A DNA stretch of 44,843 bases from a virus. Below the pieces are notes generated by a model. It saw nothing but the letters and a program-made list of their open reading frames with translations. It made no database searches and was not told where the DNA came from. Where the stretch lies: positions 1-44,843 of IMG/VR virus record IMGVR_UViG_3300021478_000053; one strand, 5' to 3'. Each line of letters opens with the position of its first letter. Positions within the stretch are counted from its first letter, which is position 1. Below are positions 34,889 to 44,807 of this stretch, piece after piece. The translations under genes and the position numbers were made by a program.

Positions 34889-35021
34889 GCGGGTCAGGGA
34901 CTACGAGCGGTTGGGGTGGATGGTGGTAGCTGAGCTGGGGCCAGTACACGGCGAGTGGAGTGTTCTAGCTGAGTTTATTTGCAGTTGTGGGCGGGCGTGC
35001 GTCGAACCGCATAAAGCGTAG
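34839..35021 (+). CDS. Small phage protein with rebuilt 5' end (60 aa)
   Basis: 60 aa. RYVLHERVRDYERLGWMVVAELGP...WSVLAEFICSCG is the core of a small protein type I recall in rhizobial phages. The first ~11 residues are encoded by the tail of the methyltransferase gene. An apparently original 5' end (MTQSDTVRYVLHER) survives upstream at 34243-34283, ahead of the methyltransferase. So this gene seems to have been split by the cassette and re-started from an ATG inside it. Function unknown. Confidence 0.6.
   Translation: MKQPNSTDRIFRYVLHERVRDYERLGWMVVAELGPVHGEWSVLAEFICSCGRACVEPHKA
34875..34891 (+). repeat. Direct repeat, copy 2 (17 bp)
   Basis: Identical to 34267-34283; contains the methyltransferase stop codon. 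Spacing between copies is 608 bp. Confidence 0.85.
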
Positions 35022-35047
35022 CTTTGCTACATGAAGCGAGGGGCTGA
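35011..35047 (+). repeat. Degenerate hairpin repeat pair before the replication gene
   Basis: ATAAAGCGTAGCTTTGCTAC (35011-35030) followed by a decayed ATGAAGCGAGGGGCTGA (35031-35047); then the ATG at 35048. Member of the dispersed 20-bp family. Confidence 0.65.
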
Positions 35048-36145
35048 ATGAAAGTCTTCGGAAGAATCGCGAGGCGCCTAGTGGACGCCGGGGTGCCCAT
35101 TGAAGAGGTGGGCGAGTTAATCGCTGAGGCGACGCTGGAACTCAGCGCCACGACGCGCAGCACCGGAGCCATCCGCCAGGAGCGTTACAGGCGTAACAAA
35201 GCGTCACAAAGCGTAACAAGCGTAACAAGCGACGGGCAAGAAAGAAAGGGTTCCGTACCTCCTAAAGAAAGAATACTTCCTTCTTCGGATACTTCGTATC
35301 CTCAGTCGGAAGTCGCGCGCGACCTTGGAAAACGGGTAGGCGAGGCTCTCCGGTCTCTCGGCCCCCTACCCGACGAGGCCAAAAGTTTCCACGACGCTTG
35401 CGAGGCCTCGCTTCGGAAAGCCGGGTTCGTGGTCTTCCGAGAATGGGAAATTGACCTGGGGGCTGGCCGCCACGGGTATATCGACCTGGTGGTGATGGAG
35501 GAGGACCGCGGGGTCGCGATTGAGCTTGATCGGAGGCTTCCGCGCGCCAAATCCCTTAAAAAACTATCAAAATTTGATGGCTACCGGATTTGCGTGACCC
35601 GGACAGCCAATTCTTCACGGGAATTCGAGGGGATGGTGGACGAGGTTATCGCGGTCCCCGTTCTTCCCTCGGAAAACCCGAAGTTTCAGGAATTTTGGAA
35701 GGTTTTCCCGGCGCGCAAGGGGTCGAATCCAAAATATCCTGCTCGGCAGAAATTTGATGAGCTTGTGAGGCAGGGGATTGACCCCGATGCAATTATTGGC
35801 GGCGCCAGAGGGTATGCCGCCGCGGCGGGGAAGGATGCGAATACGGAATTTATTTGCACGGCCGTCGTCTTTCTGAACCAGCGGCGATGGGAGGACTACG
35901 CGCCCAAATACACCCCGGAGCAGATCGAAGAATATGCGCGCCAGCGGCGGGAGAGGACTGCGATTGAGGCCTTGGCGCCGTCGGCAGCCCCGCCATACAC
36001 GCCTAGCCCAGAGGAAGTCGAACGGGGCCGGGAGTGGTATGCGCGTCGGCGAATGGGGAAGTCGGGGATAGGAATGCGGGCAGCTGGCGATGCTGTGGTG
36101 CACCTGGTGACCAAAATGGAAGAACAAAAAAGGCAGGCATCATGA
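35048..36145 (+). CDS. Replication-type protein with internal nuclease-like domain
   Basis: 365 aa. The N-terminal ~50 residues are helical and basic. Residues 48-61 are encoded by iteron-like repeats. Residues ~108-205 resemble a PD-(D/E)XK fold (GRHGYIDLVVMEEDRGVAIELDRRLPRAKSLKKL; Asp146, Glu159, Asp161). Residues ~212-290 (FWKVFPARKGSNPKYPARQKF... FICTAVVFLNQRRWEDY) resemble the C-terminal part of phage replisome-organiser proteins. The charged tail is Arg-rich. An origin-binding and helicase-loading role like lambda O is inferred. Confidence 0.55.
   Translation: MKVFGRIARRLVDAGVPIEEVGELIAEATLELSATTRSTGAIRQERYRRNKASQSVTSVTSDGQERKGSVPPKERILPSSDTSYPQSEVARDLGKRVGEALRSLGPLPDEAKSFHDACEASLRKAGFVVFREWEIDLGAGRHGYIDLVVMEEDRGVAIELDRRLPRAKSLKKLSKFDGYRICVTRTANSSREFEGMVDEVIAVPVLPSENPKFQEFWKVFPARKGSNPKYPARQKFDELVRQGIDPDAIIGGARGYAAAAGKDANTEFICTAVVFLNQRRWEDYAPKYTPEQIEEYARQRRERTAIEALAPSAAPPYTPSPEEVERGREWYARRRMGKSGIGMRAAGDAVVHLVTKMEEQKRQAS
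35182..35231 (+). repeat. Iteron-like tandem repeats, candidate replication origin
   Basis: GCGTAACAAA, GCGTCACAAA, GCGTAACAA, GCGTAACAA in tandem (35191-35228), preceded by an inverted-like GCGTTACAG and followed by a partial GCGAC. Downstream lie A/G-rich tracts and the hairpin GGATACTTCGTATCC (35287-35301). Located inside the replication gene, as in lambda. Confidence 0.55.
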
Positions 36146-36648
36146 CCCCCACGGCCCGCTATCCCGAACCAAACGTGATCAGGTTTGTGCGGCGGTTTTT
36201 CCCGAAGCCGGGACGTGTGCTCGACATTGGCAGCGGCTCGGGGAACCATGCGCGGTTCTTTGAGGATGAGGGGTGGGATGTTACGGCAATTGATCCCGGG
36301 GATGTTCGAGCGCATTCGCATCTCGGTATTCGAGCGTGGCTGCGGCTGAGCAGGGATTATGAAAAATATGACCTAGTTCTAGACCACAACACGCTTTGCC
36401 ATATCGAAAACCCACCCTACCAACAAATACACGAGGCGCTAGCCTACGCCGGAGCGTTTCTTTGCGTCCATCCAACAGATGAAACATGGCCGGGTGTGGG
36501 CATCGGCAAATCCTACACCCGGTTTGCTTCCGAGCACGAGCTGCGGGAGAGCCTGAAGCCGTTCCGCGATGTTAGAATCTGGCGCTCGTCTTATCCCGAC
36601 TTTGGGGACCACGAAATCAGCAGTTGGGTAGCATGGGGGTGGAAGTGA
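36142..36648 (+). CDS. Class I SAM-dependent methyltransferase
   Basis: 168 aa from the ATG at 36142 (ATGA overlap). Motif I LDIGSGSGNHARFF (residues ~27-40), then DVTAIDPGD (acidic residue for SAM ribose) and YDLVLDHNTLCHIENPP (motif IV region). The substrate is unknown. As first gene of the sugar block it may methylate a sugar, but small-molecule or nucleic-acid substrates are possible. Length is short but complete for the fold. Confidence 0.75.
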   Translation: MTPTARYPEPNVIRFVRRFFPKPGRVLDIGSGSGNHARFFEDEGWDVTAIDPGDVRAHSHLGIRAWLRLSRDYEKYDLVLDHNTLCHIENPPYQQIHEALAYAGAFLCVHPTDETWPGVGIGKSYTRFASEHELRESLKPFRDVRIWRSSYPDFGDHEISSWVAWGWK

Positions 36649-36728
36649 GCGTGCTTGATTGGTTCATAATAATCGAATTGATCATGCTCGTGGTAATCAT
36701 TTGGCTAACGCGGGGGATGCTTCTGTGA
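36645..36728 (+). CDS. Membrane micropeptide (27 aa, GTG start)
   Basis: 27 aa consisting of one hydrophobic helix (FIIIELIMLVVIIWL) flanked by Asp and Arg. It starts at a GTGA overlap with the methyltransferase stop and ends at a GTGA overlap with the WbqC gene, so it is exactly phased. Function unknown. Confidence 0.5.
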   Translation: MSVLDWFIIIELIMLVVIIWLTRGMLL

Positions 36729-37405
36729 TCCTTTCCGGCCATCAGCCCGTCTACCTTCCTGGCATTATCGTGCTGACAAAGATCGCGCTGTCGGACGCTT
36801 TCATGTTCGTGGGGCATTGCCAATTCCAGAATAAGAGTTGGCATTCACGCAACTACATTCGCGGTCCTAACGGCCCTCTATTGCTGACGGTGCCGGTTGA
36901 AAAGCACATAGGGCAATCAATCGACCAGACCAAGCTCCTCGCCGGCAATTGGCGGCGCAAGCATCTGGCCTCGATCGAGCATGCCTACCGCAAGCGGCCC
37001 TTTTTTGATAAATATTTCCCGTCGATAGAAAGAACCATCATGGCCGACTTTGGTTCGCTCGGCTGTTTGAACGCTTGTCTGATTGCAAAATTCTGTGAAT
37101 GGCTGGGGATAGAGACAGCATATTGTTTGAATATCGGTGTGGAAGGCCATAAGACAGATATGCTCATCAGCATGTGTAAGTCCACGGGTGCAAATCGGTA
37201 TCTATCGAGCCAGGGCGAGACCTACGTTGACCGGAAGCAGATGAAAGACGCGGGGATTAGCCATCATTTTCTGAAGTTCACCCACCCGGTCTACGACCAG
37301 GGCCACAAAGACTTTATCGAAAATCTGTCGGTGATTGATTTGTTGCTCAATGTCGGGCCGGAAGCTGGGAAGATGGTCAGGGAGGCTGGGCATGTTCTGG
37401 ATTAG
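36725..37405 (+). CDS. WbqC-like family protein
   Basis: 226 aa, GTG start at 36725. Begins with ILSGHQPVYLPGIIVLTKIALSDAFMFVGHCQFQNKSWHSRNYIRGPNG, the WbqC signature (HQP-x-Y-x-P, D-x-F-x-x-x-D/H-x-x-Q). WbqC-like proteins occur in O-antigen, capsule and nonulosonic-acid gene clusters; their biochemical reaction is not well defined. First of the sugar genes proper. Length agrees with the family (~230 aa). Confidence 0.8.
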   Translation: MILSGHQPVYLPGIIVLTKIALSDAFMFVGHCQFQNKSWHSRNYIRGPNGPLLLTVPVEKHIGQSIDQTKLLAGNWRRKHLASIEHAYRKRPFFDKYFPSIERTIMADFGSLGCLNACLIAKFCEWLGIETAYCLNIGVEGHKTDMLISMCKSTGANRYLSSQGETYVDRKQMKDAGISHHFLKFTHPVYDQGHKDFIENLSVIDLLLNVGPEAGKMVREAGHVLD

Positions 37406-38192
37406 CAAACCGACCATCGAGGCCAAGATAGCGCGGGCCTTCGGCTATGAGTATTGCACGCTATTTGATTCGGCGCGGTCGGCTATTGCGACATGGAAGA
37501 ACACGACATGGTGGTATTTGCGCCGCATACCGTCGAATGTTTGTCCGGTGCTTTGGGAGACGATGCTAGGGCGCCCGCAGATCGTCGCGGTAGATCCCGA
37601 GACGGGGTTGGCCGGCGTCGGAGTGAATTTGTACGGGTATAGGGATCTTAACCCGACGCGGTTTTATGAAATTGACCCGCTGATGATTGGCTATCTGCGT
37701 GAGCCCCGCGCTAAGGAAATGGTTATCAGCTTCGGCCGCAAGAAGATGCTGGATATAGGGGCGGGCGGGGCGCTCCTGAGCAACACCAAGCCGTGGTTTG
37801 GCTATTTCCCTGAGGGACTACGGGATGAGCTGGAATATCAGTACGGCATTTTTAATCGGCAGCTCGGGGAAAGGTGGAAGCGCGTCGATTGGTGGGACCG
37901 CTATTTGGGCGATAGCTGTGTCCGCATTCCGCAAGAGCAGCTTATGCCGTGGCGGATCATTCGCCGCATTCCAGGCAAGCGCGATGAGGTCGTGAAGGCG
38001 CTACGCGAAGCTGGGCATCCGGTAGGCACCAATTATCCGCCGTTGCCGGGGGTAACTGACGCGGGGGCGGTCCAATGGGGAAGGGAAGTCATTAACTTTT
38101 TTATACACAAAGACATCGAGCAATACGAAATCCACAAGATGTGCGAGATCATCAAGAGGACAATCGGCCAACAAGCGGAGCTTCGCTCATGA
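37392..38192 (+). CDS. Short DegT/DnrJ-like aminotransferase
   Basis: 266 aa from the ATG at 37392 (overlap with WbqC). SFGRKKMLDIGAGGALLSN is the PLP-lysine segment of sugar aminotransferases (Lys in FGxxKxLxxGxGGxLL). FGYEYCTLFDSARSAIATW is the N-terminal cofactor region, and the end EAGHPVGTNYPPLPGV resembles the usual C-terminal domain. It is ~100 residues shorter than typical family members, so it is a reduced version. The C-terminal AELRS is encoded by a hairpin repeat. It may aminate a keto-sugar. Confidence 0.65.
   Translation: MFWISKPTIEAKIARAFGYEYCTLFDSARSAIATWKNTTWWYLRRIPSNVCPVLWETMLGRPQIVAVDPETGLAGVGVNLYGYRDLNPTRFYEIDPLMIGYLREPRAKEMVISFGRKKMLDIGAGGALLSNTKPWFGYFPEGLRDELEYQYGIFNRQLGERWKRVDWWDRYLGDSCVRIPQEQLMPWRIIRRIPGKRDEVVKALREAGHPVGTNYPPLPGVTDAGAVQWGREVINFFIHKDIEQYEIHKMCEIIKRTIGQQAELRS
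38171..38188 (+). repeat. Partial hairpin repeat before the NeuB gene
   Basis: ACAAGCGGAGCTTCGCTC then ATG. A degenerate member of the dispersed 20-bp family at the aminotransferase/NeuB junction. Confidence 0.6.
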
Positions 38193-38872
38193 CAATGATC
38201 ATTGCTGAAATATCAGGCAACCATGGCGGCAGTCTTGAGAAAGCATGCGATCTGATTGCTGCCGCCGCCAGGTGTGGCTGCGATGCGGTCAAGTTCCAGC
38301 TCTACAAGCCAAAAGATCTGAACGATCCGGCCAATAACGAGGACTATGAGAAATATCATGTGCCATTAGCATGGCTTGCTGATATGTTTCAGGACGCGAA
38401 GTTTCATGAAATAGATTTATTTGCAAGTGTATTTGCTACCTGGGCTGTTGATGCGCTCAGTCTTTATCATCCGTTCGCATACAAGATAGCCTCGCCCGAG
38501 AGCACGCGGCTATCTAGCCGAATATATAGGGAACTTGCCAAAGTAATTCGGCAGACAGACTCCGAGTTGTATGTTTCCAGCGGGCGCGTTGATTTGGAAA
38601 TGATGGTAGCGCTTGACCCCGATGTCTTGTTCTACTGCAAGACGGGTTATCCGGCGTACCTGACGGGGTGGGATCTTCAATTGATGCGAAGGCTGCGGGG
38701 CGGATTTTCAGATCATAGCTCGGGCGTGGAATGGCCGCTGGCGATGATCGCGGCGGGGGCGACGCACATCGAAAAGCACTTCAAGCTGGACGACGATTGT
38801 GTGGACGCTGCGTTTTCGCTCAATCCCGAGCAGATGAAGCTTTTATGCGATCTGGCACATCACTGCTCATAA
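38189..38872 (+). CDS. NeuB/PseI-family nonulosonic acid synthase, short form
   Basis: 227 aa. TIM-barrel motifs: MIIAEISGNHGGSLEKA (start), CDAVKFQLYKP, YKIASPEST, GGFSDHSSGVEWPLAMIAAGATHIEKHFKLDDD and DAAFSLNPEQMK. NeuB enzymes condense PEP with an N-acyl hexosamine to sialic, legionaminic or pseudaminic acid. The C-terminal antifreeze-like (SAF) domain is missing (normal length ~340), so activity is uncertain. Starts directly after a repeat-borne sequence and overlaps the next gene by 28 bp. Confidence 0.8.
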   Translation: MTMIIAEISGNHGGSLEKACDLIAAAARCGCDAVKFQLYKPKDLNDPANNEDYEKYHVPLAWLADMFQDAKFHEIDLFASVFATWAVDALSLYHPFAYKIASPESTRLSSRIYRELAKVIRQTDSELYVSSGRVDLEMMVALDPDVLFYCKTGYPAYLTGWDLQLMRRLRGGFSDHSSGVEWPLAMIAAGATHIEKHFKLDDDCVDAAFSLNPEQMKLLCDLAHHCS

Positions 38873-39687
38873 CGGGGGGCACTGGCTCGTTTGGCCTAGC
38901 ATTTACGGAACGGCTGCTATCGGATGGGCTGGCAACCCGCATTTGCATCTACTCACGAGGTGAACATGCTCAAGCTGCCATGCGACTTAGATTCCGCAGT
39001 GACGAGCGTCTTCGTTTTTTTGTGGGGGATGTGCGCGATCGTTGGCGGCTTACTCGTGCTATGGATGGTTGTTCCGTGGTTATACATGCTGCTGCCTTAA
39101 AGCGCATTGAGGTTGGCTATTACAATCCATCGGAGATGGTGCAGACAAACGTCTTAGGAGCCATGAATGTCATTGAAGCGGCGCGCGATGCCAAAGTTAA
39201 GAAAGTTGTGGCCCTATCGACCGACAAGGCCTGTGAGCCTGTTAGCCCGTATGGCTACAGCAAGGCAATGGCGGAAGCATTATTCCTGGCTGCTGACGCA
39301 GCCGCTAGAGCGGCACCCCGTTTTGCTATCACTCGATATGGCAACGTATGGCGCTCAGCAGGTTCCGTGGTTCCTACCTGGGAACAACAAATGGAAGATG
39401 TTGAGGAAGTTGTGAGGATCACCGATCCTGACTGCACGCGGTTCTTCATGGGAATGGACGAGGCGATAGATTTGGTTATGGAAACAATCGACACCATGAA
39501 GGGCGGGGAAATCAACGTGCCTGAGCTCCCGGCGTATCGGCTTGGGGATCTAGCCGAGGCGATGGGGGCAAAGACCGTGGAGATAGGCTTGCCCGAGTGG
39601 GAGAAGAGACATGAAAGCATGTTGCCTGGTAGGTCGAGCGATCGGGCGCGACGAATGACCATCGATGAACTGAGGGCGGCGCTATGA
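38845..39687 (+). CDS. PseB-like UDP-GlcNAc 4,6-dehydratase (extended SDR)
   Basis: 280 aa from the ATG at 38845. NAD-binding GGTGSFG (11-17), FFVGDVRD, AALKRIEVGYYNPSEMVQTNVLGAMNVIEAA, then ALSTDKACEPVSPYG with catalytic Tyr136-x-x-x-Lys140. The NP(S/M)E.. TNVLGA..VI and STDKA segments are typical of PseB/CapD dehydratases, the first step to pseudaminic and related acids. The family is usually ~330 aa, so the C-terminus is shortened. Confidence 0.8.
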   Translation: MRSGTSLLITGGTGSFGLAFTERLLSDGLATRICIYSRGEHAQAAMRLRFRSDERLRFFVGDVRDRWRLTRAMDGCSVVIHAAALKRIEVGYYNPSEMVQTNVLGAMNVIEAARDAKVKKVVALSTDKACEPVSPYGYSKAMAEALFLAADAAARAAPRFAITRYGNVWRSAGSVVPTWEQQMEDVEEVVRITDPDCTRFFMGMDEAIDLVMETIDTMKGGEINVPELPAYRLGDLAEAMGAKTVEIGLPEWEKRHESMLPGRSSDRARRMTIDELRAAL

Positions 39688-39857
39688 GAACATCGCGCGA
39701 GATATGGGAAAAAGGCATTGAATATAAATACCGCTCTGGTCACGTAGCCAGCTACGGCGAATTAGCGGAGATATTTCAGATTCTCTCTGAGTTGATGGAG
39801 CGCATTAAAAAACTTGAGAATCCCGAGCAGATGGCTAAAGGGAAGGGCTGGCTATGA
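39684..39857 (+). CDS. Small hypothetical protein in sugar block (57 aa)
   Basis: 57 aa, ATGA overlaps at both ends. Charged N-terminus, then a helical segment YGELAEIFQILSELMERIKKLEN likely to form a coiled coil. May be an accessory subunit of a neighbouring enzyme. Function unknown. Confidence 0.55.
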   Translation: MRTSREIWEKGIEYKYRSGHVASYGELAEIFQILSELMERIKKLENPEQMAKGKGWL

Positions 39858-40486
39858 GCAATCCCTACGACGTGATAGCGGCATTTGAAAAGGACTTATG
39901 CGCCTATACAGGCGCGGTCTTCGCCGTAGCGGTTGACAGTTGCACGAACGCATTGATGCTCTGTTGCGAGTATCTGAAAGTCAAAACCGTATCAATCCCG
40001 AGGTATACCTATGTATCAGTCCCGCAGGCTATCAAACGTGGTGGTGGTTGGGTTCTCTTTGATGATCGTAAGTGGAGCGGCGTGTATAGCCTTGATCCTT
40101 ACCCTATTATTGACTCCGCCCGACGGTTTCGGGCGCAAATGTGTGACGAATTGCCAAGTGCGCATTATGTATGCACGTCATTTCATTACACCAAAATACT
40201 GCAAGGGGATTCCGGGGGTGCCATACTGCACAACGATCGAGCCGCGGATTCGTGGTTTCGACGAGCTCGGCACGACGGCCGTACAGACGGGCTGACGGTG
40301 CACGAGGACGAATTCCCGATGATTGGGCACCGCTGCACCATGATGCCAGGAACGGCGGCGATGCTGCGGTCGCGGCTGGCTGTGTTGCCAAGATATAACC
40401 CCGATTTGATTGTTGACGCGGGTCACTACCGGGATCTGAGCGAAATAGACTGGAACGGGATTTATGACCGACAACGAAACCGCTAA
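39854..40486 (+). CDS. Second short DegT/PseC-like aminotransferase
   Basis: 210 aa. N-terminal FEKDLCAYTGAVFAVAVDSCTNALMLCCEYLKV is the PLP-phosphate region typical of DegT enzymes (T-G-A-x-x-A-V-x-V-x-S-C-T-x-A-L). SFHYTKILQGDSGGAILHND holds the likely Schiff-base lysine. The C-terminal domain is very reduced compared with ~380-aa relatives. It differs clearly from the first DegT gene, so it is a second lineage rather than a tandem copy. Confidence 0.65.
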   Translation: MSNPYDVIAAFEKDLCAYTGAVFAVAVDSCTNALMLCCEYLKVKTVSIPRYTYVSVPQAIKRGGGWVLFDDRKWSGVYSLDPYPIIDSARRFRAQMCDELPSAHYVCTSFHYTKILQGDSGGAILHNDRAADSWFRRARHDGRTDGLTVHEDEFPMIGHRCTMMPGTAAMLRSRLAVLPRYNPDLIVDAGHYRDLSEIDWNGIYDRQRNR

Positions 40487-40691
40487 GCTGCTCGATGAAA
40501 TTGCAGAGCTGCGTGCTCTCAATAGGGGCATGTATACGACACTGGAATATTTATACAGCGGAGCTGATAAAACCATGGATCTGCTGAGGCGCGTATATGC
40601 AGTAGATCCAGAAAAAGCCAAAGCTTGGCACCGACTTGTTCTCGAGAACGACCTCAAAGTTTTGGAGGCAACGAAAAAGCTATGCGAATAA
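40464..40691 (+). CDS. Small coiled-coil protein (75 aa)
   Basis: 75 aa, helical throughout (TAKLLDEIAELRALNRGMYTTLEYL; WHRLVLENDLKVLEATKKL). It overlaps both neighbours by 10-23 bp. Possibly a scaffold or regulatory subunit; no family recognised. Confidence 0.6.
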   Translation: MTDNETAKLLDEIAELRALNRGMYTTLEYLYSGADKTMDLLRRVYAVDPEKAKAWHRLVLENDLKVLEATKKLCE

Positions 40692-40897
40692 ATCAAGCTC
40701 CTTATGAGTGGACGATTCGTAAGTTACTCAATCATGCCCACACGGGCCCGCACGCCGAATGTTCGGATGGGCAATATGAGCCTGCCCGTCCCTATGGGAT
40801 GTTCAGTCTTAGAAGCCGTCTGCGTCTTGCGTGGATGGTGTTCAAGGGCGAGGCAGATGCTCTACGCTGGCCGCACCAGAATCCGAAGGGCTATTAA
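40682..40897 (+). CDS. Small hypothetical protein (71 aa)
   Basis: 71 aa from the ATG at 40682. YEWTIRKLLNHAHTGPHAECSDGQYEPARPYGMFSLRSRLRLAWMVFKGEADALRWP; the second half (RLAWMVFKGEADAL-WP-Q) resembles small phage membrane-proximal proteins. Ends directly before the nucleotidyltransferase gene. Function unknown. Confidence 0.6.
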   Translation: MRINQAPYEWTIRKLLNHAHTGPHAECSDGQYEPARPYGMFSLRSRLRLAWMVFKGEADALRWPHQNPKGY

Positions 40898-41554
40898 ATG
40901 CGAATAGGCTGCATCATCCAGGCGCGGACAAGGTCGGCCCGCCTTCCCAATAAGGTAGATATGGACATTGGCGGCTGGCCCATGTGGCGGCATGTCATGG
41001 AGCGCACCAAGGAATTTGGACCCATCATGGCATGGGCTGGGGAATACCCGGAACTAAACGAAAACGATGTTCTCGGTAGGTATGCCCTTTGTGCCCGTAT
41101 GAACTCCCTGGATGCGGTTATGCGGGTGACCAGTGATTGCCCCCTTATCGCGCCGGAGGCGTGCCGGCGGGTCTTAGAACGGTTCCTGGTGGGGGGCTAT
41201 CATCTGGCTGGGGGCTACGATTATGTGGCGAACGATCTAGCGCAGACCTACCCTGACGGGCTCGGGTGCGAGATCATGACCCGTGAGGCACTGGAATACA
41301 TGCATCGCCATGCCGACAAGGCGTATGATCGGGAGCATGTAACCCCCTTTATCCGACGGTCCAAGGATTTCATGAAGTTTAATGTCCGCTGCCCCTTCGT
41401 CGGCATAGAGGCGCTAAAGCTTTCGGTGGATACGGCAGAAGACCTTGATTTTGTGAGGAAAATAGACGCGGAATTGCGTGACGGGGCGGACAAATATAGC
41501 TTGGAATCGACTTTGGGGGCGGTTGAACGTGTCAAGACCAAAGCAGCCGCTTGA
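40898..41554 (+). CDS. SpsF/PseF-like cytidylyltransferase
   Basis: 218 aa. The N-terminal GCIIQARTRSARLPNKVDMDIGGWPMWRHVMER is the nucleotide-binding loop of CMP-sugar synthases (I-x-A-R-x-x-S-x-R-L-P-x-K). VTSDCPLIAPE is the metal-binding region, and EHVTPFIRR and LSVDTAEDLDFVR close the fold. It would activate a nonulosonic acid with CTP. The middle (GPIMAWAGEYPELNENDVLGRY) is shortened compared with typical family members. Completes the set PseB-like, DegT, NeuB and PseF-like. Confidence 0.8.
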   Translation: MRIGCIIQARTRSARLPNKVDMDIGGWPMWRHVMERTKEFGPIMAWAGEYPELNENDVLGRYALCARMNSLDAVMRVTSDCPLIAPEACRRVLERFLVGGYHLAGGYDYVANDLAQTYPDGLGCEIMTREALEYMHRHADKAYDREHVTPFIRRSKDFMKFNVRCPFVGIEALKLSVDTAEDLDFVRKIDAELRDGADKYSLESTLGAVERVKTKAAA

Positions 41555-42074
41555 GTTCCAGCCGGACGGGCGTCTGCTGGACGAGCGCGGCCCGACTACT
41601 GAGCGCATGCGCAGGGCCGAGTTCGACGTGGGGGATACCGGGACGATCACTCTACGGCAATCGCCGGTGGAAAGAGCGGTACGTCGGGGGACGCTGACGA
41701 AGCTGCAGGGCAAAGCTGCGGAGAAATTTTACAGCCATTGGTATCAGGCGGGCCTTGCCGGCAGCACTGGCTCCGCGGACCCGTTGAAGGTATTCGGCAC
41801 TGGTTTGGACTTCTCGCGCCTCTTTTCGAGTGAGCGTGCGGAGGCTCATGCTTGGGCTATACGTAAGGTAATAAGGGCGATACGGGAACGGCAGGGGTTT
41901 GCCGGACATCGGGGGGACCATGGGGTGCGGATCCTTTGGCTGGTGGTTTGCCAGGAAATACCTCTTGGTAATGCTGGAGAGGCGGTGGGGTTCCGGGGGA
42001 CTGCGGCAGAAGTTATGGCGCGCACGATCCTGCGCTCGGCGCTGAATATCCTTATTGACGAGTGGGGGTTATAA
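41529..42074 (+). CDS. Possible late-gene regulator (DUF6456-like, 181 aa)
   Basis: 181 aa with a GTG start at 41529 overlapping the previous gene. Basic N-terminus, a helical core LTKLQGKAAEKFYSHWYQAGLAG, and a C-terminal part (HGVRILWLVVCQEIPLGNAGEAVGFRGTAAEVMARTILRSALNILIDEWG) resembling the HTH-like region of alphaproteobacterial DUF6456 phage regulators. Located as the second-last gene before a promoter-terminator pair, the place of lambda Q. The assignment is tentative. Confidence 0.45.
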   Translation: MSRPKQPLEFQPDGRLLDERGPTTERMRRAEFDVGDTGTITLRQSPVERAVRRGTLTKLQGKAAEKFYSHWYQAGLAGSTGSADPLKVFGTGLDFSRLFSSERAEAHAWAIRKVIRAIRERQGFAGHRGDHGVRILWLVVCQEIPLGNAGEAVGFRGTAAEVMARTILRSALNILIDEWGL

Positions 42075-42075
42075 A

Positions 42076-42420
42076 ATGCGCGTTTTGGTCTGCGGTGGGC
42101 GGAACTTTCGGAGTCCGGCTCAAGTGTCAAATGCACTGGATGCGATTCACGCCGAAACGCCGATCACGCATCTAATTCAGGGCGGCGCGGATGGGGTTGA
42201 CAAGTTTGCAGAGGGGTGGGCGGCATTTAAGCCCGGGATAGTAAGATATGTGTGTCATGCTGAGTGGGATAAATACGGGAGAATGGCGGGGCCGATTAGG
42301 AACCGCAGAATGTTGGAATGGAAGCCCGACCTGGTTGTGGCATTCCCTGGTGGCGCCGGCACGGCAAACATGGTGAAACAGGCGGAGGCTGCAGGCGTAA
42401 AAATAAGGTTCGTGACATAG
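42076..42420 (+). CDS. SLOG-domain (DUF2493/YAcAr) protein
   Basis: 114 aa from the ATG at 42076. MRVLVCGGRNF (Rossmann start), ITHLIQGGADGVDKFAEGWA (the GGAxGxDxxA motif), PIRNRRMLEWKPDLVVAFPGG (R-N-x-x-M and FPGG) are the hallmarks of YAcAr/DUF2493 SLOG proteins, which bind nucleotides or ADP-ribose-type ligands. Frequent in phages; function unknown. Last gene before the late promoter. Confidence 0.85.
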   Translation: MRVLVCGGRNFRSPAQVSNALDAIHAETPITHLIQGGADGVDKFAEGWAAFKPGIVRYVCHAEWDKYGRMAGPIRNRRMLEWKPDLVVAFPGGAGTANMVKQAEAAGVKIRFVT

Positions 42421-42705: not shown

Positions 42706-43308
42706 ATGCCTATGCGGATGGTGGTGCTCATCCGTCACGGCGCGACTGCGCTTAATAAGGGCAAAAAGGGTGACCGAATTCGCGGTTGGCTCAATGTAGC
42801 TCTCTCCGATGTTGGTATCGAGGAATCGAAGAAGACCGGCGCTAAGCTCGCTAAGGACCCGAACAAGCCCGATCTCCTGGTCTCAAGCGACCTCACCAGG
42901 TCCTGGCAGACGGCCAATATTGTAAGCAAGCTTGCTAAGATCCAGCTGGCACCGCCGACCATGGCTCTAAGGCCATGGGACCTGGGTGAATTTGCCGGCC
43001 AGGAATCCGAGAAGGTCGTGCCGCAGATCATCAAATATGTGACAGAGAAGCCGGACAAGGCGGTTCCCGGCGGGGAGTCCTTTAATAAATTCAGGAATAG
43101 AGCCTTAGGCGGCATTGCGCAGATCCTTGCAGCGGTTCCGGACGAGCTTATCGGGCTTGTGACCCATCATCGGGTAGAGCGGCTTATCGAGGCCTGGCGC
43201 GTGGCTGGGTTCCCGCCTGACGGGCACATTGACCTGGCTACATTTACCAAGCACGGCGAGAACACGGGCGCTATACAGGAAATACAGTTCCCCGTTAGCG
43301 GGAAATAA
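42706..43308 (+). CDS. Histidine phosphatase (phosphoglycerate mutase-like)
   Basis: 200 aa. Catalytic LIRHGATALN (Arg10-His11-Gly12), LVSSDLTRSWQTANIV (second Arg), PWDLGEFAGQ, and GLVTHHRVERL with the second catalytic His. Proteins of this family are occasionally found in phages; the substrate is unknown (sugar phosphates, nucleotides or phosphoproteins). In the late block, so it may act during virion production, possibly linked to sugar or nucleotide metabolism. Confidence 0.8.
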   Translation: MPMRMVVLIRHGATALNKGKKGDRIRGWLNVALSDVGIEESKKTGAKLAKDPNKPDLLVSSDLTRSWQTANIVSKLAKIQLAPPTMALRPWDLGEFAGQESEKVVPQIIKYVTEKPDKAVPGGESFNKFRNRALGGIAQILAAVPDELIGLVTHHRVERLIEAWRVAGFPPDGHIDLATFTKHGENTGAIQEIQFPVSGK

Positions 43309-44624: not shown

Positions 44625-44807
44625 CTACTTCCGATCAGGTGGCGCCTTCGCAGTAATATCGGTAAGCCGATCGCCAGAGAACCATGCGGCTTGCATCCAG
44701 TGCTTTGCCAGCAATAAGAAGGACGCCCTATCCTCCTCCGAGCTGGTTTGTTCAGCCCATTTATAGCATTCTCGGGCAAAACTACGATATTCGTCTGGGG
44801 TTAGCAT
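44625..44807 (-). CDS. Small Rhizobiales-type protein (60 aa)
   Basis: 60 aa. MLTPDEYRSFARECYKWAEQTSSEEDRASFLLLAKHWMQAA resembles a large set of small helical proteins in Bradyrhizobium and relatives (L-x-x-x-E-Y-R-x-x-A-x-E-C-x-x-x-A). GGGAGG precedes the ATG by 5 nt. The promoter region at the window end contains a possible operator. Function unknown. Confidence 0.7.
   Translation of the reverse strand: MLTPDEYRSFARECYKWAEQTSSEEDRASFLLLAKHWMQAAWFSGDRLTDITAKAPPDRK

Follow-up and report, generated by a model that had tools for sequence, protein, structure and literature searches.

Genome context and layout of the locus

The window, by which we mean the whole stretch of DNA analysed, is a virus record of 44,843 bases from a freshwater phage. 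Its make-up is podophage-like, with a terminase, portal, scaffold, major head protein, and SU10-type adaptor. A near-identical contig (L002/L173) spans the end of the window and then continues into its start, so we regard the genome as nearly complete, with circular permutation.

Between a replication gene and the terminase lie seven co-directional, overlapping enzyme genes (36142-41554, all on the plus strand), in the order SAM methyltransferase, WbqC, DegT-1, NeuB, PseB, DegT-2, and cytidylyltransferase. The original prediction, made from the sequence alone, had named these seven enzymes, and the set was borne out by Pfam and NCBIfam profiles and, for DegT-1, by profile–profile comparison. 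The overlapping junctions it described are also real, with start/stop overlaps at 36645/36648, 36725/36728, 37392/37405, 38189/38192, and 38845/38872, and further ones at 39684/39687, 39854/39857, 40464/40486, and 40682/40691. What it had missed are four short ORFs, encoding 27, 57, 75, and 71 aa, which close the apparent gaps between the enzyme genes.

These ORFs also lie on the plus strand. The first (36645..36728) encodes a very hydrophobic 27-aa peptide (VSVLDWFIIIELIMLVVIIWLTRGMLL) and overlaps both of its neighbours; in L002 its DNA is unchanged, and L011, a diverged relative, has no such ORF. The 57-aa ORF (39684..39857) fills the gap between PseB and DegT-2. No function was assigned to the 75-aa ORF (40464..40691), which has a partial match at the same place in L011 (45 per cent identity over 38 aa), or to the 71-aa ORF (40682..40897), which is identical in L002 and whose start is an internal ATG of the ORF at 40625-40897. 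We recognised no glycosyltransferase or flippase among the window ORFs scanned, and a scan for sigma-70 promoters over 34900-42200 found none.

Directly upstream is a replication-initiation-like gene (35048..36145, plus strand; phrog_270/1347). Directly downstream is a conserved flanking gene to which no function was assigned (41478..42074, plus strand), with 52 per cent identity to its counterpart at the same place in L011. Genes of the YspA/SLOG family (42055-42420) and the histidine phosphatase family (42706-43308, identical in L002) also lie just downstream of the cassette. Identity to L002 shifts sharply at about position 35870: the portion of the replication gene compared upstream of this point has 72 per cent protein identity, and from about 35873 onward the DNA is 98 per cent identical up to the end of the window, a pattern like that left by recombination.

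Near the end of the window, the minus strand encodes an orphan protein of 59 aa (44625-44807). Weak relatives of this protein were found in 7/61 genomes from the family of Bradyrhizobium neotropicale, and in 0/58 and 0/56 genomes from two classes. This gives only a hint to the host.

Enzymes encoded by the cassette

The SAM-dependent methyltransferase (168 aa; 36142..36648, plus strand) matches PF13489 (E = 1e-12). It has an orthologue with 44 per cent identity at the same place in L011, and its omega relative to L002 is 0.29. The WbqC-like protein follows (36725..37405, plus strand; PF08889, 3.7e-55), with a GTG start set by alignment to its L011 counterpart (47 per cent identity). It shows no amino acid changes from L002 in the compared codons, and a literature search on WbqC found no functional paper.

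PseB is the clearest of the cassette proteins (280 aa; 38845..39687, plus strand). The TIGR03589 model spans 265 of its residues (8e-88), the FlaA1 structure 2gn4 is matched at 6e-65, and the FlaA1 residues GGTGSFG, T-D-K (126-128), Y136, and K140 are all retained. These features place it among the inverting UDP-GlcNAc 4,6-dehydratases of the PseB/FlaA1 type, though its TIGR03589 score of 294 bits falls below the equivalog cut-off of 408.

The NeuB protein (227 aa; 38189..38872, plus strand) is a NeuB/PseI-type synthase without a SAF domain (PF03102, 9e-32; TIGR03586 PseI, 7.7e-38). PseI is its best match both among NCBIfam models and among PDB entries (8h2c, 2.6e-25), which assigns it to the PseI synthases with a score below the equivalog cut-off. 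The catalytic residues E7, K35, Q37, K99, S102, H176, H197, and D206, whose roles we take to be those of the N. meningitidis enzyme, are all kept, and these eight are nearly invariant across eighty-seven viral relatives. In NeuB, an arginine of the SAF domain contacts the hexose. This arginine is absent from the window protein, which counts against a pseudaminic-type reading. A shorter homologue has been solved, with a chain of 290 residues (6ncs).

The last gene of the cassette (40898..41554, plus strand) encodes a CTP:sugar-acid cytidylyltransferase of the SpsF/PseF type (218 aa; PF02348, 7.8e-16; PDB 6oew, 3.5e-17). About nineteen residues of the usual central region are missing, a deletion shared with L011, and the nucleotide-binding and metal motifs are kept (R10, R15, K19, D80, D178). 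It has 63 per cent identity to the L011 protein and an omega of 0.05 relative to L002. For PseB and the cytidylyltransferase, the conservation counts span more than one subfamily, and we drew no family statistics from them. No cassette protein in the window passed an equivalog cut-off, so the substrate names used here are by analogy.

Two short predicted aminotransferases

DegT-1 (266 aa; 37392..38192, plus strand) had no Pfam match and no meaningful PDB sequence match. An hhalign comparison with full-length DegT, using a DegT-1 profile built from three sequences, aligned the two end to end (Prob 95.4%, E = 1.8e-8, 256 columns; shuffled controls about 2% or less) and set Lys118 on the PLP lysine. 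On this profile evidence DegT-1 is probably still a DegT protein, a reduced PLP aminotransferase with Lys118 as its putative PLP lysine. An AF2 model, also from three sequences, had a pLDDT of 35 and was not used. We found DegT-1 only in this phage lineage, and a search for relatives in cellular genomes found none.

DegT-2 (210 aa; 39854..40486, plus strand; PF01041, 2.9e-16) belongs to the DegT/DnrJ/EryC1/StrS family of fold-type I enzymes and has both the PLP lysine (Lys114) and the aspartate (Asp87), which are present in 86/86 relatives. Its AF2 model, built from thirty-six sequences, is a compact PLP fold with a pLDDT of 94. This model aligned to full sugar aminotransferases with a VIA-align Z of 19.8 over 206/210 residues, and to PseC (2fnu) with a Z of 17.8; other sugar aminotransferases scored equal to or above PseC. 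Profile scores for PseC and LegC were about equal. DegT-2 likely takes the PseC role in the cassette.

The original prediction had remarked that several enzymes are shortened. This is correct for NeuB and the DegT proteins. Viral NeuB proteins are typically about 280 aa, compared with about 340 in cells at the sampled loci, and the SAF-less form is usual among the viral relatives sampled. Viral relatives of DegT-2 cluster at 195-227 aa, compared with mostly 346 aa or more for cellular DegT proteins near NeuB at the sampled loci; the viral set was picked through the short family, so these lengths are not a census. Since such forms are usual among the sampled viral relatives, and DegT-2 has a confidently modelled PLP fold, we do not take shortness as decay.

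The short DegT family (window 39854-40486, L090-L169) has a near-invariant Y-x-D-L ending and is very common on viral contigs. It is virus-rich, with at least 579 IMG/VR candidates, and NeuB patterns gave at least 528 viral candidates. We searched 142 genomes from a single class for the short DegT, with no positive control, and found none at E = 1e-15. If the assignment is right, this family of about 200 aa would mark how far a PLP sugar aminotransferase can be reduced in size.

Conservation and selection

Compared with L002, a phage with 98 per cent identity, the seven genes have 94.5 synonymous and 36.5 non-synonymous changes, for a pooled omega of about 0.11. The cassette is under purifying selection. 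DegT-1 has no non-synonymous changes in the compared codons. A comparison of gene clusters, which the original prediction had proposed as a check, found the same gene order in L011, with enzymes of 44-63 per cent identity and the same flanking genes; L011 also has an HNH-like insertion, an ORF lying between DegT-1 and NeuB. A third relative, L174, starts at the end of the same cytidylyltransferase and continues into the same flank. The cassette was not seen in the stretches examined from more distant terminase relatives, the annotation of Bradyrhizobium prophage ppBeUSDA76-2 (the nearest cultured relative by portal) lists no such genes, and a DNA-level search of INPHARED with the cassette gave no match.

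Proteins shorter than their cellular counterparts and the lack of PseH and PseG are what might be expected of a decaying piece of a host polysaccharide locus that the phage had picked up and that has no present function. Against this stand the omega of 0.11 over the cassette, the shared order in L011 at 44-63 per cent identity, the kept catalytic residues, and short forms that are usual among viral relatives. Decay is scarcely credible on this evidence, and we rejected both decay and chance because of the selection, synteny, and motif results.

Pathway type

Profile searches of every frame of the window found no match to PseG or PseH, as the original prediction had anticipated, so that two of the six canonical pathway enzymes are missing from the cassette. 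These gaps count against the host-dependent explanation proposed below, in which a host would have to complement both steps. We also considered whether WbqC, DegT-1, or the methyltransferase might contain a concealed form of either enzyme, and rejected this with hhalign probabilities of 0.4% or less. Among fifty viral records carrying NeuB, PseG was found in none (0/50), PF02350 epimerases in only five, and PseH-like proteins, weakly, in eight; such records are short and often fragments, unmatched in size to the whole genomes they are compared with. The absence of PseG from both the window and these records suggests that the hydrolase is supplied by the host, or that another route is used. One such route would be a virus-evolved minimal pathway free of PseG, formed by the cassette and its kin, in which phage enzymes including DegT-1 and WbqC skip or replace acetylation and UDP release and yield a nonulosonate unknown from bacteria. 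We think this quite unlikely.

In the NeuB tree, the window protein groups with L011 (0.997) and L012 (0.96), within a clade of twenty-two members, of which fifteen are cellular (support 0.957). PseG scored over 100 bits in 9/11 tested genomes of this clade and in 4/32 outside it, a threshold chosen afterwards and applied to genomes that are not independent. In several genomes (L258, L281, L299), NeuB and PseG share a contig and are no more than about 2 kb apart.

The original prediction left the product as a CMP-pseudaminic or legionaminic-type acid. The type of pathway stood up to our analysis, and the pseudaminic side is now favoured, by PseB (294 bits for the PseB model and 81 for LegB) and by the association of the NeuB clade with PseG. 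A legionaminic- or neuraminic-type nonulosonate, or a novel acidic sugar, would fit the failure of any protein to reach the PseB, PseI, or PseC equivalog cut-offs, the near-equal PseC and LegC scores of DegT-2, and the presence of WbqC and two aminotransferases, which fall outside the canonical pathway. Those same PseB scores and NeuB clade point the other way, as do the best PDB matches (PseI and FlaA1/PseB), a pseudaminic-associated methylase in the sister cassette of L012, and the failure to find a NeuC/LegG-type epimerase in the window relatives L010-L012. We hold another product to be possible but unlikely.

Comparison with known systems

Phage genes that alter nonulosonates are already known, and the minimal cassette looks like a new form of such genes. 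In Acinetobacter baumannii, the prophage enzymes EpaA and EpaB turn the host's capsule pseudaminic acid into the 8-epimer and require psa genes of the host (PMC12053666). By analogy, the cassette may resemble them in being phage-borne, acting on a nonulosonic acid, and drawing the rest of the pathway from the host; they differ in being two epimerising enzymes rather than a biosynthetic set. Phage O-acetyltransferases also alter nonulosonates on the host surface (PMC6586298).

With the PseB-C-H-G-I-F pathway of Campylobacter and Helicobacter, the cassette shares a single operon carrying PseB- and PseI-type enzymes and putative PseC- and PseF-type ones. It differs in being phage-borne, in lacking PseH and PseG, in its minimal DegT, SAF-less NeuB, and shortened cytidylyltransferase, and in adding a methyltransferase, WbqC, and a second DegT. 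In E. coli, the six Caulobacter pathway enzymes together with FlmG modified flagellin (PMC7591256). Homologues of PseB and PseC occur in Shewanella, where clear orthologues of PseH, PseG, PseI, or PseF are lacking and the flagellin is still modified (PMC3765264), a caution that missing genes need not mean a missing sugar.

The same short DegT occurs in sugar gene clusters of Flavobacterium immuto phages (36-39 per cent identity) and of Synechococcus phage S-SCSM2R (about 31 per cent identity). Unlike the cassette, these clusters include several glycosyltransferases, and no gene in the stretches viewed is annotated as NeuB. Marine virus AG-345-L05 (Kyanoviridae) resembles the window phage in carrying consecutive genes for a cytidylyltransferase, a DegT protein, and a SAF-less NeuB, but its DegT is full-length (378 aa), it carries many other sugar genes, and its NeuB is 27-29 per cent identical.

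Proposed function

Because documented phage nonulosonate genes act on the host surface, we propose that this is a host-dependent cassette for a pseudaminic-type CMP-nonulosonate that alters host surface glycans, and we consider this explanation somewhat probable. The analysis shows the gene content and order, the intact motifs, the conservation, and the missing PseG and PseH; what the enzymes act on and make, the part played by the host, the acceptor, and the advantage to the phage are inferred.

In this scheme, PseB would dehydrate UDP-GlcNAc, and DegT-2, in the PseC role, would add the 4-amino group. A host PseH-like enzyme would then acetylate the sugar and a host PseG-like enzyme would release the free hexose. 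The phage synthase would join this hexose to phosphoenolpyruvate, and the CMP-sugar would then be made by the SpsF/PseF-type enzyme of the phage. The methyltransferase, WbqC, and DegT-1 would probably tailor this sugar to a phage-specific variant, though the roles given to WbqC and DegT-1 are guesses. Host glycosyltransferases would place the product on flagellin, LPS, or capsule, and the changed surface would lower re-adsorption by the phage or its rivals. The phage would presumably gain by keeping rivals out or by being freed from sugar receptors.

The sugar might instead be used on phage particles, as virion glycosylation, or on phage DNA. We recognised no glycosyltransferase for host glycans, and many genes in the virion region of the window have no known function, both of which would suit such a use. 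Known nonulosonates, however, occur as glycans on surfaces or proteins, we saw no pair of base-modifying enzymes next to the cassette, and the phage nonulosonate genes documented so far work on the capsule of the host. Use on the virion or DNA is very unlikely in our judgement. If the proposed action on host glycans is right, a small phage devotes about 12 per cent of its genome to a sialic-acid-like sugar, and the cassette offers a direct, testable route for phages to rewrite host surface glycans during infection.

Variant cassettes at the same locus

At the equivalent locus, between replication-like and small-terminase-like genes, L012 carries a larger pseudaminic-like cassette (L012:1661-9323). 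The set comprises a WbuX/PseA-type amidotransferase (above cut-off), a HisF2-like protein, PseB, and a cytidylyltransferase, together with a GNAT protein (a weak family match), a short DegT, NeuB, and the pseudaminic-associated methylase (TIGR03587, 130.7 bits, cut-off 112), and also a second methyltransferase-like ORF, a hexapeptide acetyltransferase, and a radical SAM protein. It includes a predicted acetamidino module.

A different set is found in L181, whose terminase is 44 per cent identical to that of the window. Given the L012 and L181 sets at one locus, the site seems to accommodate sugar cassettes that can replace one another, and if so, related phages exchange them there. The L181 genes (L181:1528-6261) encode a GHMP kinase, transketolase halves, a nucleotidyltransferase, a SIS-domain isomerase, and an epimerase, and may form a nucleotide-heptose pathway with its own source of sedoheptulose.
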